Positions 268 through 7,331 of a stretch of 64,000 nt of DNA are shown here, piece by piece. Origin of the DNA: Candidatus Fermentithermobacillaceae bacterium (GTDB lineage Bacteria > Bacillota > Sulfobacillia > Fermentithermobacillales > Fermentithermobacillaceae). The notes under the pieces are model-generated. The model was not told the origin of the DNA, did no database searches, and saw only the letters and a program-made list of their open reading frames with translations. Made by a program: the position numbers and the translations under genes. Position 1 is the first letter of the stretch; each line of letters opens with the position of its first letter. The stretch lies in the NCBI GenBank assembly GCA_018052455.1, contig JAGPNE010000001.1, forward strand, positions 359,261 to 423,260, read 5' to 3'.

Positions 268-1566
268 TTGGGTTCGAGTTCGCGCCGCGAATCTGTCAAA
301 GGATCAAATACAGTTGACGAGCGTGCCCAAGACAATCAAGAACCTAGAAGCAAGAGCCGCTTGATCAAAACTAGGCTAGAAGGTCGCGAAGCTATGCCTC
401 TCGCGTTGTATTTTCTTTCAGTTGCTGCAGTCGGTATTCCACTTTCCGCTAGAATATTGATTGCCGAGCCAACACCAGATTCGGTCACGGCTGTTTTGTT
501 CCTGTGTCTAGGTCTCCTTTCATTTCACCTGCCGGTAGTGATGCCGTCAAATGTCCAGATTCACCCTGGAAGCCCTATTGTGTTGGGAGCTCTTTTTCGC
601 TACGGAATGCCTACCGCGCTAATCACCATCATACCTTCGTTCCTTCTGCATTTTTTCACATGGAAACATGGTCTATTGAACTGCCTGTTTAACGCCGGGC
701 AGTTTACTATATGCCTCTATGCTGCCAAGGTCATAGGAATCCTAGCGGGGTGGCGACAAGGCATGCCTGCAACCGATCCCGACCTTATACCAATAATTCT
801 CATGAAAAGCACTTTTGATACCGTTAACATCTTCTTGGTATCCATAGGTAGGTCCATTGACAATAAAGAACCCTGGAGCAAGTCTTTCATACAGATGTTC
901 TATAACGAAAGAAGATCTTCGTTCATGCTAGAAATGTTTCTCTGCATAGTATCTATGCTCATCTCTTCCTATCTTGGGTACTCTGCACCAATAATAGTGC
1001 TAATAGGGGTTTTGGCTCTTAGGCTTCAGAACGTATTCGAGAAAGAACTAGTCGTAAGAACTCAAGAAGCTGAAACCGATCAGCTCACCAAGCTCTACAA
1101 CTTACGCTATATAGAAAAATGGCTTGAGAACGATTTCAGTCTGCTGGCTCGAAACCATAAGAACTGTTCATTCATATTCGCTGACGTAGATGGATTGAAG
1201 GCAATAAACGATGCATATGGACATGAAGCAGGTGACCGCTTGCTTGTACATATTGGTAATCTTGTGTCCAGTAACATAAGGAACAAAGACTGGGTTGCCC
1301 GGTATGGCGGAGATGAATTTGTGATCGCATGTCCCGAAACAAACCTTGTTCAGGCCTTATCTATTGCCAATCGGATTATCGCCGCTACCAAGGAGAATCG
1401 TTTCTTTTACAATGGCCTGCTAGTTGGTTTCGGTTTGAGCCTAGGTGTAGCAACATGGCCTGAGCATGGTGAAACTGGCTTCGACGTTATTCGAACGGCA
1501 GATAAAGCCATGTACTTGGCCAAAAAAGAGGGCGGTAACTGCGTGCGAACAGCAAATGAACTATAA
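268..1566 (+). CDS. Membrane-bound diguanylate cyclase (GGDEF)
   Basis: Predicted to make the second messenger c-di-GMP from two GTP. The N-terminal half (residues about 40-260) holds several hydrophobic segments forming a membrane sensor domain, with conserved-looking Pro-Gly-Ser-Pro and His-Gly-Leu-Leu-Asn patterns. The C-terminal GGDEF domain carries an intact GGDEF active-site motif at residues 347-351, and the RxxD product-inhibition site (R338-N-K-D341) lies exactly five residues before it, so the enzyme looks both active and feedback-regulated. The start is TTG, chosen because AGAAGGAG at 251-258 is well placed before it. The next gene downstream is a full-length paralogue of almost identical size, so this is a tandem duplication. 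The signal sensed by the membrane domain is unknown. Confidence 0.9.
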   Translation: MGSSSRRESVKGSNTVDERAQDNQEPRSKSRLIKTRLEGREAMPLALYFLSVAAVGIPLSARILIAEPTPDSVTAVLFLCLGLLSFHLPVVMPSNVQIHPGSPIVLGALFRYGMPTALITIIPSFLLHFFTWKHGLLNCLFNAGQFTICLYAAKVIGILAGWRQGMPATDPDLIPIILMKSTFDTVNIFLVSIGRSIDNKEPWSKSFIQMFYNERRSSFMLEMFLCIVSMLISSYLGYSAPIIVLIGVLALRLQNVFEKELVVRTQEAETDQLTKLYNLRYIEKWLENDFSLLARNHKNCSFIFADVDGLKAINDAYGHEAGDRLLVHIGNLVSSNIRNKDWVARYGGDEFVIACPETNLVQALSIANRIIAATKENRFFYNGLLVGFGLSLGVATWPEHGETGFDVIRTADKAMYLAKKEGGNCVRTANEL

Positions 1567-1732
1567 GGAGCAGTTTGTCAAAGGCTGCCCTAACAGTTGT
1601 CGTCGAGTACAGACTTAAGGGCCTTAAAATCCGTCTCGTTTTGTATGATAATGCAACTAGTAAGTAAATGCTGGTGGCTTTCCCGTTCGTTTGGAATGTA
1701 GGTTGAACTCGGGGCAAAGGAGCGTCCAGGTA

Positions 1733-3028
1733 TTGAACAATTCACCTCAGAAGACCACTGACACATCAGAACAAAGTGCCCAAAAGAACCCGGCAAGGAA
1801 CCATACGGTACCTAAAGGCCGTTTCATAAGAACACGTCTAGAGGGTCGTGAGATCATACCTTACGCTCTTTCTTTTGTAGTTATTGCTTCAATCGGCATC
1901 CCAGTGGGAATAAGGTCTATCCTGACCGGCCAAATTCCAAATCCCAAAGCGGCAATGGTGTTTGCGATAGTAGGCCTTATTTCATTTCACATCTCAGTCG
2001 TGATGCCATCTGGAGTTCACATTAACCCAGGTAGCCCCATCGTGCTAGGAGCTCTTTTTCGCTACGGACTGCCTACGGCACTGGTCACCATCATGCCTTC
2101 TTTCTTGCTTCATTTCTGGACGAAAAAACACGGCCTTCTGAACTGTCTTTTCAACTGCGGGCAATTTGCTCTATGTCTCTTGGCAGCTGAAGGGGTTGGT
2201 CTTTTGACGGGATGGCAACCGGGGATACCTGCAAGCGAGGCAGACCTTATTCCTATACTCCTCATGATTTTTGTGCATGACACCTTGAATATCTTTTTGG
2301 TAGCTATACCTGTCTCGATTGACAACAAAGAGCCCTTTGCAAGAACGTTTACAAATATGTTCTACCACGAAAGAAGGAGTTCTGTCGCCCTAGAGACTTT
2401 CCTCTCAACGGTGTCCATGCTCATGTCATCTTATGTTGATTACCTTGCTCCAGTAGTAATGCTAGTAGGAGTCATGTCTCTGAGCATCCAGAATCTATTT
2501 GAGCAAGAGCTGGTCGTAAAAACACAAGAAGCTCAAACCGACCAGCTAACCAACGTGTATAACTTCCGATACTTAGAAAGGTGGCTTGAGACTGACTTTG
2601 ACGCACTCACACGTTCTCGTAAATGTTGCTCCTTCATCTTCGCAGACGTAGACGGTCTCAAGACCATAAACGATACATACGGCCATGAAGCAGGAGATCT
2701 TCTGCTCGCTCACGTTGCAGAAGTCATCAGTGCTCACACTAGAGGCAGGGATTGGGTGGCTCGATATGGCGGAGATGAGTTTGTAATCTCTTGTCCTGAA
2801 GCAGACACTGCCAAAGCGACGCTGATAGCAAATCGCATTGTAGAATCAATTAAGGGAAACCCCTTCTTCTATCATGGGCAGAGGGTAGAATTTGGCCTAA
2901 GCCTAGGGGTAGCAATGTATCCGGAGCACGGGGAAACCGGCTTCGATGTTATACGAATGGCAGATAGAGCCATGTATTTCGCCAAAAAGGAAGGTGGCAA
3001 TCTTGTCCGAACTGCCGCGCAGCTCTAG
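1733..3028 (+). CDS. Membrane-bound diguanylate cyclase (GGDEF), tandem paralogue
   Basis: Second copy of the preceding gene, similar over its whole length, including the multi-segment membrane domain and the catalytic domain. GGDEF is intact at residues 346-350 and an RxxD inhibitory site (R-G-R-D) lies five residues upstream, so activity and product feedback are both expected. The frame stays open upstream to a TTG at 1691. I place the start at TTG 1733 because AAAGGAG at 1716-1722 precedes it with good spacing and the resulting 431-residue length matches the paralogue. The 166-nt gap before it holds a 13-nt palindrome (TTAAGG-G-CCTTAA, 1615-1627) and a GATAAT-like box near 1649, so the second copy may have its own promoter. 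The N-terminal cytoplasmic tails differ most between copies. Confidence 0.9.
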   Translation: MNNSPQKTTDTSEQSAQKNPARNHTVPKGRFIRTRLEGREIIPYALSFVVIASIGIPVGIRSILTGQIPNPKAAMVFAIVGLISFHISVVMPSGVHINPGSPIVLGALFRYGLPTALVTIMPSFLLHFWTKKHGLLNCLFNCGQFALCLLAAEGVGLLTGWQPGIPASEADLIPILLMIFVHDTLNIFLVAIPVSIDNKEPFARTFTNMFYHERRSSVALETFLSTVSMLMSSYVDYLAPVVMLVGVMSLSIQNLFEQELVVKTQEAQTDQLTNVYNFRYLERWLETDFDALTRSRKCCSFIFADVDGLKTINDTYGHEAGDLLLAHVAEVISAHTRGRDWVARYGGDEFVISCPEADTAKATLIANRIVESIKGNPFFYHGQRVEFGLSLGVAMYPEHGETGFDVIRMADRAMYFAKKEGGNLVRTAAQL

Positions 3029-3166: not shown

Positions 3167-3655
3167 CTATCCCGCAAGCATAACAATATTCAAGCCTTCC
3201 GCAGGAAATCGTCGATACTCATTGGTTTTCGGTTCGAAACAAAGCAAAAAACCATCTTCTAATTTGCCAGTACAAGCTACCACTAGGGTCTTGTTCGCGG
3301 ATATTTCCTTTAGCACCTCTATTGGTTCAAGTTCAAGACTTTCATCGAATATGATCTCAATATTGTCTAGGAGCAAAGTGTCTAGGAAAGTTCCATCTTC
3401 CATGCGCAGATCTGCCAGCATATCCTTTAGAATCCCGGCAGCCTCGAGTGGTCTGTCCTCTGGGTCTACATTCAAAAGCCTCTTACTAAGCTCTAAGGTT
3501 ACGTTAACTCTAGGCGCGCCTGTGAGTCGCTCAACTTCCTTTAGCACTCTGGTCTTACCACTGGCAGGAGGACCTACCAACATAATCAGTTTACAATCCT
3601 CAGTTCTTACTTTACCCATCTTCTCAATCACTGCATCAACAGGTCCGATGCTCAA
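3167..3655 (-). CDS. brxF: BrxF-like P-loop ATPase (orphan, type 3 BREX family)
   Basis: A 162-residue P-loop protein. Walker A is G28-P-P-A-S-G-K-T35 and a Walker B-like strand LLLDN sits at residues 94-98. Between them are features I associate with BrxF of type 3 BREX defence systems: an NVxLELSKRLL stretch after the P-loop, an R-P-L-E segment, then LLLDNIEIIFD and a short C-terminal domain with FEPKTNEYR. The family is small, about 150-160 residues, which matches. The frame is open further upstream to 3814, but TTG 3655 is preferred: GGGGGTGA lies just ahead of it, and the upstream extension is Cys-rich and unlike the family. No brxC, pglX, pglZ, brxHII or brxA is nearby; the neighbours are GGDEF genes and lemA. 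It may be a relic, a part of a system located elsewhere, or a protein with an independent role. Confidence 0.72.
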   Translation of the reverse strand: MSIGPVDAVIEKMGKVRTEDCKLIMLVGPPASGKTRVLKEVERLTGAPRVNVTLELSKRLLNVDPEDRPLEAAGILKDMLADLRMEDGTFLDTLLLDNIEIIFDESLELEPIEVLKEISANKTLVVACTGKLEDGFLLCFEPKTNEYRRFPAEGLNIVMLAG

Positions 3656-3891
3656 TCTACTCACCCCCGTCATTGTTTGCGCACATGCGACCCAACCAAC
3701 ACCCAGACACATACAGAAATTAGTTCCAATGTAATCTTTATCATACCCACCTCCATGAAACGCGTATCTGATAATAGGGTTAGTGGTCTGGGTTAGACTT
3801 CTTTGTGTCAACAAGGTTTTCCTTCTGGTTCTTTCATTGGATCGCTGACCTGATATACTAGTACAAAGAACACTTGCAAGGAGGAGTTAAG

Positions 3892-4446
3892 GTGAATTGG
3901 GGTTTGACCATTATAGGACTACTTGTAGTAGTAGTGATAGCCTACGTAATATGGCTATACAATTACCTTGTAGGACTAAGGCAAAGAGTCCACAACGCAT
4001 GGTCTCAGATTGATGTTCAACTCAAGCGCAGACATGATCTAATACCCAACCTTGTCGAAACCGTAAAAGCGTACGCCGCCCACGAGACAGCAGTGTTCCA
4101 AAAGGTAACAGAAGCAAGATCCAAGGTTGCTTCCGCAAGAACCATCGACGAGCAGATTGACGCAGAAAGAAATCTCGAAGGGGCCGTAAGGGCCCTGGTG
4201 GCTGTCGCCGAGAACTACCCCGAACTCAGATCTAGCGAAAACTTCAAGGACTTGCAGTCCCAGCTATCAGACACTGAAAGCAAGATTGCATTCTCAAGAC
4301 AGTTCTACAACGACACAGTCATGAAGTACCAGACTGCCGTACAGAGATTCCCAGCTAACCTGGTAGCGAGCACATTTGGATTTGCACCGATGACGTACTT
4401 TGAAACGGAACCTGAAACTCGAGAGTCCGTAACTGTACAGTTCTGA
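3892..4446 (+). CDS. lemA: LemA family protein
   Basis: A 184-residue LemA protein: one N-terminal membrane helix (residues about 4-24) followed by a helical bundle. The typical LemA signature is visible just after the helix: an NAWSQIDVQLKRR block, then DLIPNLVETVKAY. The C-terminal region has the usual FSRQFYNDTV and FPANLVA segments. Function in bacteria is poorly defined. The start is GTG 3892, set by AAGGAGGAG at 3879-3887; the in-frame TTG at 3874 lies ahead of that site and would lack one. A TATACT box at 3854-3859 is a possible -10 element with a weak -35. Its stop overlaps the start of the next gene by one base, so the two are translationally coupled, a common LemA/DUF2207 pairing. 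Confidence 0.93.
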   Translation: MNWGLTIIGLLVVVVIAYVIWLYNYLVGLRQRVHNAWSQIDVQLKRRHDLIPNLVETVKAYAAHETAVFQKVTEARSKVASARTIDEQIDAERNLEGAVRALVAVAENYPELRSSENFKDLQSQLSDTESKIAFSRQFYNDTVMKYQTAVQRFPANLVASTFGFAPMTYFETEPETRESVTVQF

Positions 4447-6419
4447 TGAACAGGCTCGACAAACTCAGAAGGAGACTAAGGTCAAAAGTGAGCACTCATA
4501 GTAGTTCGTACAAGGTAGGCAGGATACTGATGTACTGTATCCTGGCTATCGCCATATTTGTGCTAGGGATGTGTTCTTTTCACAATGAATGTTACGCCAA
4601 ATCGTACTATGTTTCTGACCTTCATGTTACAGCCAAAATTAACCATGATGGTTCAATGGACGTTGTAGAAGAAAGAACCTTCTACTTCAGTGGGGACTTC
4701 ACTTGGGTTACTCAGGTCCTATCTCTGGAAGGATGTTCTGCCATCACGGATATATCAGTTTCAGAAGGTGATCTTAGTTACGTCCTGGCCGACTCTGGGC
4801 CGGGCACTTTTAGCTGCAATCGAGTGGATAACACTATTGAGGTCACCTGGAGGTACAGAGCGTCTGACGAAACACGCACTTTCACCCTCTCTTATAAAGT
4901 GAAGGACGTCGTATTAGTACATGAGGATGTGGCGGAACTGTACTGGAAGTTCGTAGGAGACGCTTGGGAAGTTCCATCGAATAACGTTTCTATCGAACTA
5001 TATCTTCCCGACAGATTTGTTGAAACGGATGATGAGATCAATAAAGTACGAGCGTGGGGACACGGACCCCTATCGGGGGAGGTCCAAATCATTCCGCCAG
5101 ACAAGATAACGTGGACAATCGAAGCCTTGCCCGCTGAGACTTTTCTAGAGGGCAGGGTTGTATTTCCAAAATCAATGGTTCCAAGTGCAACACGCACTTC
5201 CGGCATGGCTAGTTTGAATTCCATCCTAGCGCAGGAGGAACAGTGGGCAGAAGAGGCCAATAGGACTAGGAAGATCCAGCGCGCCCTCTTACCTATTTCA
5301 ATAGCCTGCCTCATTGCCTGCGCGGTATCAGCAATTACCCTCCAGTTGCGGTGGGGTAAAGAGTATAGACCGGAGTTTTCGGGGGATTACTATCGCGAAC
5401 TCCCCGGAGACTATACACCAGCCGAACTGGGCTACTTATGGAACTTCAAGAAGATAGGGAGTCAAGACATAGCCGCGACCATATTGGACCTGGCGCGAAA
5501 GGGATTTCTGCGAATTGAGGTCTCTACCGAAGAGAAAGAGGTTCTCGGAGGGATTTTGGGGACCAAGACCGTTACCGATTACGTACTGGTCCTTGAAGAA
5601 AAAGGGACAGCAGTCCTTGAAGACCCAAAGGTAGAACCGGGTTTGACCGAGCACGAGAGGTTTCTTTTGGAGTACCTGTTTCGAACAGCATCAGGAGGCA
5701 AAAGCGCCTTGCCGCTCAAACGACTGGAAACTGTAGGTAACAATAGTCCTGCCTCAATCAATAAGTTCTTCCAGGGATTCAAGGAAAGAGTCGAATCCAC
5801 GCCGGCTGCACTTCAGATGTTCGACCACAAAACGGATGAGATAAGGATCCGCGAAATCATTGCAGGTTCGATCGTTTTCGGGTCGGGTCTAATTGCCCTA
5901 TCCATTACAAGGTCTATAGCCCTTCCGGTCATATTAATTTGCGCGGGCGGGTTAATACTTATCTTTTCAGGGACATTTCTCAGACGACGCAGTCAGACAG
6001 GAAGCACACACATGGAGATGTGGAAAGCGTTTCGCCGGTTCTTGGAAGATTTTTCGGCCCTGGATATGGCCGAAATTCCAAGTCTTGTCATATGGGAGCA
6101 CTACCTAGTCTACGCTACCGTATTGGGAATAGCTGACAAAGTTATTGAGCAACTGGCCGTCTTGTATCCAGAGGCTGGCCAACCTGCAACGTCACCTTTC
6201 ACAGGTTGGGCCTGGTTAAGCGGCGGGCAGAGCACCGCCAAATCGTTTGCGGAGACGCTCCATTCTGTTACCCGCAGCCTGCAAAACTCAGTCGCAGCCG
6301 CAATGACGACTTCCGGTGCCGGAGGAGGCGGTGGCTTCTCAGGCGGTGCCGGAGGAGGCGGTGGCTTCTCAGGCGGTGGCGGTGGCGGTGGTGGCGGTGG
6401 TGGCGGAAGAGCGGGATGA
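4446..6419 (+). CDS. DUF2207 membrane protein with Gly-rich tail
   Basis: A 657-residue predicted membrane protein of the DUF2207 (YciQ-like) family. It has a membrane helix near residues 27-45, an extracytoplasmic beta-rich domain with the family's early DGSMDVVEER pattern, a second helix near 280-300, a cytoplasmic domain with GYLWNFKKIGSQDIAATILDLARKG-like sequence typical of the family (shown here only as a description of the 340-375 region), a third hydrophobic pair near 475-515, and a very Gly-rich C-terminus ending in a run of glycines, RAG. Such Gly/Ser-rich tails are normal for DUF2207. The ATG overlaps the lemA stop (TGATG). Function is unknown; the co-occurrence with LemA suggests the two act together at the membrane. 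Confidence 0.9.
   Translation: MNRLDKLRRRLRSKVSTHSSSYKVGRILMYCILAIAIFVLGMCSFHNECYAKSYYVSDLHVTAKINHDGSMDVVEERTFYFSGDFTWVTQVLSLEGCSAITDISVSEGDLSYVLADSGPGTFSCNRVDNTIEVTWRYRASDETRTFTLSYKVKDVVLVHEDVAELYWKFVGDAWEVPSNNVSIELYLPDRFVETDDEINKVRAWGHGPLSGEVQIIPPDKITWTIEALPAETFLEGRVVFPKSMVPSATRTSGMASLNSILAQEEQWAEEANRTRKIQRALLPISIACLIACAVSAITLQLRWGKEYRPEFSGDYYRELPGDYTPAELGYLWNFKKIGSQDIAATILDLARKGFLRIEVSTEEKEVLGGILGTKTVTDYVLVLEEKGTAVLEDPKVEPGLTEHERFLLEYLFRTASGGKSALPLKRLETVGNNSPASINKFFQGFKERVESTPAALQMFDHKTDEIRIREIIAGSIVFGSGLIALSITRSIALPVILICAGGLILIFSGTFLRRRSQTGSTHMEMWKAFRRFLEDFSALDMAEIPSLVIWEHYLVYATVLGIADKVIEQLAVLYPEAGQPATSPFTGWAWLSGGQSTAKSFAETLHSVTRSLQNSVAAAMTTSGAGGGGGFSGGAGGGGGFSGGGGGGGGGGGGRAG
6315..6374 (+). 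repeat. Two perfect 30-bp tandem repeats encoding the Gly-rich tail
   Basis: Two identical adjacent 30-bp units, 6315-6344 and 6345-6374, each encoding the ten residues GAGGGGGFSG inside the DUF2207 gene. They are followed by a GGT/GGC-rich run. In-frame repeats of this kind can change copy number by slippage, so the tail length may vary between strains. Confidence 0.95.
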
Positions 6420-6554: not shown

Positions 6555-7331
6555 ATGACAACTAAGGTCGTAATATTGCAGAGCTATGATGAAGTTAGTA
6601 GTTTCGCAGCAAATGAGGTTCTCAAACTGATCAACTCAAACTCTAAGGCAGTTATAGGACTTCCAACAGGCAGTACCCCACTTGGAATGTACAAGGAACT
6701 CGTCAACATGTATAAGCAAGGACTTGTCTCATTTCAGAACGTAACTACATTTAATCTTGACGAGTACATAGGCCTAAGTCCCGACGATAAAAACAGTTAC
6801 CATTACTACATGTATGAGAACTTTTACAAACATGTGAACGTAGGCGAAATGAACATCAACATCCCGAATGGTAAGGCCTTGGACCTTGAACAAGAATGCC
6901 GAGATTACGAACACAAGATCAAAACCGCAGGAGGAATCGATCTGATGCTACTGGGCCTCGGAGTCAATGGGCACATAGGTTTCAACGAACCTGGCCCGTT
7001 ATTCTCTCCAGTAACCCACAGTATAGATCTTGACAAAAGTACCATAGAGGCAAATGCAAGGTTCTTCAAGTCCATATCCGAAGTGCCTACCAGCGCGCTA
7101 ACAATGGGCATAGGTAGTATAATGCGTTCTCGCAGAGTACTGTTGCTAGCAACCGGTGATTCAAAAAAAGTGGCGGTCAAGAACTCGATCCAAGGCCCTG
7201 TAACGCCGCAAGTCCCTGCATCGGTCCTGCAGTTGCACTCAAATGCCACTTTTCTGCTAGATAAAGATGCGGCATCTCTCTTGGAACTACCGGGTCATAT
7301 TGAATGTACCCTATACGGCAAATTGAAATAG
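6555..7331 (+). CDS. nagB: Glucosamine-6-phosphate deaminase
   Basis: Converts glucosamine-6-phosphate to fructose-6-phosphate and ammonia, the last step of GlcNAc catabolism. The 258-residue length is typical. Visible family motifs: the phosphate-binding GLPTGSTPLGMY near residue 36, the catalytic-region NLDEYIGL, and the GLGVNGHIGFNEPG motif with the active-site His and Glu. The Asn before Gly-His is as in Bacillus-type NagB; the E. coli enzyme has Asp there. The ATG follows AGAAGGAC. The next gene starts 16 nt after the stop, so the two are probably co-transcribed. The partner enzyme NagA is encoded far away, at about 42-43 kb, on the other strand. Confidence 0.97.
   Translation: MTTKVVILQSYDEVSSFAANEVLKLINSNSKAVIGLPTGSTPLGMYKELVNMYKQGLVSFQNVTTFNLDEYIGLSPDDKNSYHYYMYENFYKHVNVGEMNINIPNGKALDLEQECRDYEHKIKTAGGIDLMLLGLGVNGHIGFNEPGPLFSPVTHSIDLDKSTIEANARFFKSISEVPTSALTMGIGSIMRSRRVLLLATGDSKKVAVKNSIQGPVTPQVPASVLQLHSNATFLLDKDAASLLELPGHIECTLYGKLK

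Follow-up and report, generated by a model that had tools for sequence, protein, structure and literature searches.

The analysed window, the whole stretch of 64,000 nucleotides, carries at 3167..3655 on the minus strand a gene for a standalone BrxF-like P-loop protein. Two GGDEF proteins are encoded to its left, the first after metG (268..1566, plus strand) with a weak MASE9 match below the cut-off, and the second (1691..3028, plus strand) convergent with the BrxF-like gene. To its right follow the divergent neighbour LemA (3874..4446), a DUF2207 membrane protein (4446..6419) and a presumably nagB-like gene (6555..7331), all on the plus strand. The position between c-di-GMP synthase genes and lemA/DUF2207, described in an initial annotation of this DNA, was confirmed by Pfam matches for both GGDEF proteins, LemA and DUF2207.

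The protein (MTGVSRLSIGPV...VMLAG) is encoded by a minus-strand ORF that ends at 3167 and comprises 162 aa when read from TTG 3655 or 168 aa when read from ATG 3673. A ribosome-binding-like GGGGGTG (3662..3668, minus strand) precedes the TTG by about 7 bases, and both elements are common to all three species of the genus, indicating that the 3167..3655 coordinates of the initial annotation are probably right. The residues encoded ahead of the TTG have low confidence in the AlphaFold model, and translation of the ORF likely begins at TTG 3655. Counted from this start, the Walker A motif GPPASGKT (3551..3574, minus strand) occupies residues 28-35 (34-41 from the upstream ATG) and the Walker B-type strand LLLDN (3362..3376, minus strand) residues 94-98 (a beta strand at 99-103 in the model), in agreement with the length and motif positions first reported. 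Within LLLDN the Asp is conserved, and an Asn stands where the catalytic Glu is usual. A genus-specific insertion of six residues lies before this strand (3383..3400, minus strand) and corresponds to a gap in the other BrxFs of the alignment. In the beta-hairpin cap region (3206..3283, minus strand; defined by column counts and by model strands 129-139, 142-147 and 152-157), the BREX-typical R126, W134, Y145 and H150 are replaced by A, C, C and T. The BREX-like stretch NVTLELSKRLL is present, and most standalone proteins lack it. The gene is monocistronic, with neighbours that differ from those of other standalone genes. The promoter scan found no promoter-like site for this gene, the terminator scan gave a count at chance level, and the Rfam scan returned no RNA family.

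Family assignment and BREX content of the genus

The protein matched the NCBIfam model NF033453 (BREX_3_BrxF) with 123.9 bits (E 4e-36) over profile positions 3-148 of 149, against a curated cut-off of 50 bits, and the PADLOC BrxF model with an E-value of 2e-33, which places the similarity far beyond chance. Pfam gave just weak general P-loop matches below the cut-off. The window protein is a BrxF-family P-loop protein, and the BrxF-like character proposed at the outset, for which a profile search had been the suggested check, is well founded.

No BREX gene adjoins the window gene, as noticed from the start, and the genome-wide search extended this observation to the window genome (G000; 1.54-Mb, 30 contigs, 92% complete). 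With a type 3 BrxC query, brxC was found neither in G000 nor in G002 (85% complete), which together with G001 makes up the other two known genomes of the genus; the same query gave strong matches in G001, G005, G007, G010 and G014, and NF033441 agreed for G000-G002. The pglZ profile PF08665 was absent from G000 and detected in G014, G420, G403 and G519, while G002 had no pglZ above the cut-off and one sub-threshold PglZ match of 20.6-bit. The pglX-type N6_N4 methylase (PF01555) was likewise absent from G000; it was detected in the BREX of G001, and two matches were present in G002, one of them within a 945-aa frame. None of the type 3 BREX markers brxC, pglZ and pglX-type N6 methylase was therefore found in the 92% complete window genome.

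The genome G001 does hold a BREX-3 locus, on another contig than the lone gene, where its own brxF precedes brxC and the locus runs off the contig end. The BrxF of this locus is without a Walker A motif and shares 17% identity with the window protein. G001 therefore has two unrelated BrxF-type genes, one that belongs to its BREX and the lone brxF, which comes in addition. A gene for a group II intron reverse transcriptase/maturase was observed just upstream of the BREX-3 locus (L055:5608-6903).

One option raised initially was a trans-acting piece of a system encoded elsewhere in the genome; such a BREX or BREX-like system might lie in DNA missing from the assembly or on a mobile element. The incompleteness of the window genome and the BREX-3 locus of G001 would leave room for it, but it appears very unlikely, given that G000 and G002 contain neither brxC nor a pglZ above the cut-off, that PF01555 is missing from G000, that the BREX of G001 has a BrxF of its own, and that the window protein is without the BREX-typical cap residues.

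Synteny, selection and origin of the gene

The order metG, first GGDEF gene, second GGDEF gene and convergent brxF-like gene is common to all three genomes of the genus, and the orthologues of the brxF-like gene in the two other genomes occupy the same place with 68-77% identity. LemA and DUF2207 come next in G000 and G001 (2/3 genomes, by Pfam and synteny), and in G002 the nagB-like gene directly follows the brxF-like gene. In the sister genus (seen fully in G008, G010 and G013 and partly in G005), metG and one GGDEF gene are followed by the nagB-like gene, which marks where the ancestral site ends on the right, or by its next neighbour; neither brxF nor lemA is present there, and the site is empty. 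In G013 the GGDEF gene that follows metG has either been duplicated or been split into tandem pieces (L092:5183-8089), and two copies exist in the window genus.

The brxF-like orthologues have dN values of 0.14-0.23 and a dN/dS of about 0.1, matching the flanking GGDEF genes, with dS near saturation. The gene is shown to have been passed on vertically within the genus, staying at one site and under purifying selection. Within the sampled family and order, the gene is restricted to this one genus. Because the sister-genus site is empty, the synteny is shared and dN/dS is about 0.1, the evidence speaks for a gene that the common ancestor of the three species gained and that has been maintained since, rather than one that is decaying.

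These data bear on the idea, also raised initially, that the gene is a relic. In this view a BREX-3 locus once stood here and decayed, and its brxF escaped deletion and is now drifting. Such relics exist (G491 and G197, with fragments in G061 and G049), and intact brxF-brxC pairs occur within the same family (G005 and G007). Nevertheless, the idea must be regarded as highly unlikely: the gene is intact in all three species, as syntenic orthologues with a complete Walker A motif, evolves under a constraint similar to that on its GGDEF neighbours, and has kept its start codon and ribosome-binding-like site, whereas no BREX fragment was seen at the window site and the corresponding site of the sister genus is empty. 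The close orthologues are likewise without adjoining BREX genes, so that the neighbours of relatives are not ordinary BREX genes lost only in the window genome.

The suggested link to membrane signalling fared no better when gene neighbourhoods were compared. A role in membrane or c-di-GMP signalling, together with the neighbouring GGDEF or LemA/DUF2207 proteins, could draw on the GGDEF pair that adjoins the gene in 3/3 genomes of the genus, and on the G096 contig, on which LemA/DUF2207 lie 6-9 kb from a brxF. However, the GGDEF genes are convergent with the window gene and form no operon with it, the site in one of the three species (G002) is without LemA/DUF2207, the sister genus has GGDEF without BrxF, standalone genes elsewhere have other neighbours, and a membrane segment is evident neither in the sequence of the window protein nor in its model. 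As the association is not kept outside the genus, the LemA/DUF2207 or GGDEF link was rejected, and this role is very improbable.

Two mobile sources were also considered and rejected. For a phage origin, neither phage records nor viral contigs yielded a match; for a plasmid origin, the matches were 24-34% identical, three of the four being annotated as BREX-3 brxF.

Standalone relatives and their motif signature

Across the phylum, BrxF was found above the cut-off in 61 of 398 genomes, mostly with brxC immediately after it. Intact lone genes were found in family f56 (five genomes, four with the same neighbours), in f147, f107 (arranged as greA-lysS-gene-uppP) and f100, and in G096. Neither brxC nor pglZ above the cut-off was detected in the five f56 genomes or in G222, G439, G208, G355 and G096, while in G519 and G403 a BREX is encoded at another locus of the genome. 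When the class of G439 was searched, relatives turned up in 121 of 300 genomes, belonging to 43 of 97 genera; the class is likely Negativicutes on the basis of gene content and of the SLH and outer-membrane-barrel proteins nearby. Among 32 loci inspected in this Negativicutes-like class, brxC was present at two; the remaining 30 had sigH upstream in 23 cases and uppP downstream in 27, with yacP, an rlmB-like gene and pfkA around. Nearly all inspected copies thus have sigH (or an envelope-protein gene) on one side and uppP on the other, as illustrated by L178:5021-5485 and L169-L199, where sigH-[gene]-uppP loci belong to a conserved chromosomal cluster of yacP, sigH, pfkA and uppP. The sigH-uppP proteins score 94-155 bits as BrxF with NF033453, and PADLOC agrees, so that automatic annotation would label them as BREX.

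Some individual loci are of note. The lone brxF of G096 (L056:8654-9199) lies next to apparent argH/argG genes, with the LemA/DUF2207 pair mentioned above; it sits on a long branch with the BREX BrxFs and is therefore probably a separate escape. In G491 (L089:2890-4386), brxF is fused in frame with the C-terminal part of a helicase, apparently because the middle part of a BREX-3 locus was deleted. In G197 (L090:8542-9021), brxF is followed by a brxC match of merely 22 residues and adjoins a probable DNA adenine methylase gene, and this locus is likely a BREX remnant. G049 has a BrxF-like segment within a 764-aa frame, followed by methylase fragments (L018:7077-9371), which represents a broken BREX-3 locus, and a BrxF fragment was seen in G061.

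In the unrooted tree, built from 86 proteins, a split with a support of 86/85 separated 44 BREX BrxFs and the G096 protein from 38 standalone proteins and the window trio, and the trio formed its own deep branch on the connection between the standalone clade and the BREX BrxFs. In AU tests, the following placements of the trio were neither shown nor rejected: nesting with a BREX cluster (p 0.27 and 0.14) and nesting with the Negativicutes-like clade (p 0.32).

Motif columns were counted in three genus proteins, 38 standalone proteins and 64 BREX proteins, which are phylogenetically non-independent and amount to one independent pair. Walker A GK[ST] in register was found in 3/3 genus and 38/38 standalone proteins and in 35/64 BREX BrxFs, and Asp103 in 3/3, 38/38 and 46/64, respectively; a basic residue at position 74 characterizes 41/41 standalone and window proteins versus 49/64 BREX proteins. 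The cap triad R/K126 + Y/F145 + E/D152, which we derived here as the mark of a functional BREX BrxF, is present in 63/64 BREX proteins, seven of the 41 standalone and window proteins and none of the three from the window genus, where the window protein has A/C/E. The HP[ED][YFH] motif occurs in 31/64 BREX proteins versus 0/41, and a Cys at the W134 position together with the six-residue insertion is confined to the window genus. At the level of sequence, the two groups form a double dissociation, in which the standalone proteins always retain the ATP site but are variable at surface residues that the BREX BrxFs hold constant, and the BREX BrxFs show the reverse. The window protein shares three features of the standalone group: no adjoining BREX, an intact ATP site and a lost cap triad.

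It is conceivable, though we think it somewhat improbable, that the window gene is a brxF whose departure from BREX was recent, in the ancestral lineage of this genus, where it was recruited for a new job independently of the other standalone genes. The restriction of the gene to one genus of the sampled family and order would fit such a history, as would the retained NVxLELSKRLL stretch, which is typical of one BREX BrxF cluster, and the nesting in that cluster, which was not rejected (p-AU 0.27). On the other hand, the best tree places the trio outside all BREX clusters (86/85), and the trio shares the standalone signature of an intact Walker A motif and a lost cap triad.

Predicted function and relation to known systems

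The AlphaFold model, built from 7 sequences, has a pLDDT of 88. Its top fold matches in the PDB included ORC5, other AAA+ proteins and BrxB of 9zll, a BrxC-BrxB-PglZ crystal structure (E 2e-4; TM 0.53/0.48, a weak match by TM-score). BrxF has been treated as the counterpart of BrxB, with a fold made of an ORC-like core and cap hairpins after strand 4 and without a C-terminal helical bundle (PMC12839542); by its secondary structure and the 9zll match, the model of the window protein has this fold. In type 1 BREX, BrxB is an inactivated AAA+ domain. It binds to the AAA+ face of BrxC, with ATP at the interface, raises the BrxC ATPase, competes with additional subunits of BrxC and forms a bridge to PglZ (PMC13326643). 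W135 of Escherichia fergusonii BrxB is a PglZ contact (PMC12205998). The idea that the loss of W134 means loss of a PglZ contact was dropped, as the BrxB Trp aligns, weakly and by profile alignment, with F109; F109 is conserved in the window protein, so that a loss of this contact does not follow from the alignment.

Among the three options of the initial annotation, a BrxF-derived protein with another job fits best. We propose, with moderate confidence, that the window protein belongs to the BrxF family but stands alone, independent of BREX, and works as an ORC/Cdc6-type mini-AAA+ (STAND-like), ATP-binding and nucleotide-controlled adaptor, probably for an AAA+ partner. The protein is predicted to bind ATP, and its hydrolysis could be slow or partner-dependent, as suggested by the Walker B motif, where Asp is followed by Asn and not by Glu. 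Like type 1 BrxB on BrxC, it may sit on the face of a partner AAA+ protein that carries ATP, and thereby cap the partner or regulate its assembly; this adaptor role is inferred from the likeness to BrxB. The sigH/uppP neighbourhood, which the window genus does not share, is no more than a lead to such a partner. Against our proposal stand the monocistronic window gene, which has no partner or conserved operon, the place of the trio on the connecting branch of the tree with the AU results given above, the BREX-like NVTLELSKRLL that was kept, the weak TM-score of the PDB match, the motif contrasts that are not phylogenetically independent, and genomes that are 92% (G000) and 85% (G002) complete. 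It is conceivable but unlikely that the BrxF/BrxB module predates BREX. In that case an ATP-binding standalone ancestor, inherited vertically on Firmicutes chromosomes (in the Negativicutes-like class between sigH and uppP), would have been recruited by BREX and reduced to an ATP-independent adaptor, and the window gene would be an early branch of the standalone lineage.

The best reading of our results is that the window protein is functional and independent of BREX and is one member of a large set of standalone BrxF homologues; no description of standalone or orphan BREX genes was found in the open-access papers searched. BrxF serves as a defence marker in NCBIfam and PADLOC, and because the lone genes are widespread chromosomal genes in other Firmicutes, an entire branch of the family probably carries the BREX "defence" label wrongly. 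If this large BREX-free chromosomal branch is true, the NCBIfam and PADLOC models would mislabel proteins across a whole Firmicutes class, and single-gene BREX calls could be inflated. A BREX-free relative with an ATP site would also offer a simple way to probe the BrxB/BrxF fold alone, a point of the BREX mechanism.

Compared with known systems, the window protein resembles the BrxF of type 3 BREX (NF033453; PADLOC PDLC02496/02497) in profile, length, motif order and fold, and its best-matching BREX-type BrxFs, which precede brxC, are 30-39% identical to it. It differs from them in the insertion and the four replaced cap residues, in a genome without detected brxC/pglX/pglZ, and in a complete ATP site, which nearly half of the sampled type 3 BrxFs lack. 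With the standalone proteins of the Negativicutes-like class, f56, f100, f107 and f147, it shares the absence of adjoining BREX, the intact Walker A motif, the basic residue at 74 and the BREX cap triad that is mostly lost in that group, but those proteins have another genomic place, are mostly acidic rather than basic at 64-65, and all have W134. The BrxB of type 1 BREX (9zll and 9nv3) has a similar fold, with 9zll among the best matches, yet it binds PglZ and BrxC and is without Walker motifs, whereas the window protein has a complete Walker A. Finally, at 162 aa the window protein is without the C-terminal lid helices and the winged helix of ORC/Cdc6 and other AAA+ ATPases (ORC5, p97 and TRIP13), but has the ORC-type P-loop core in common with them.
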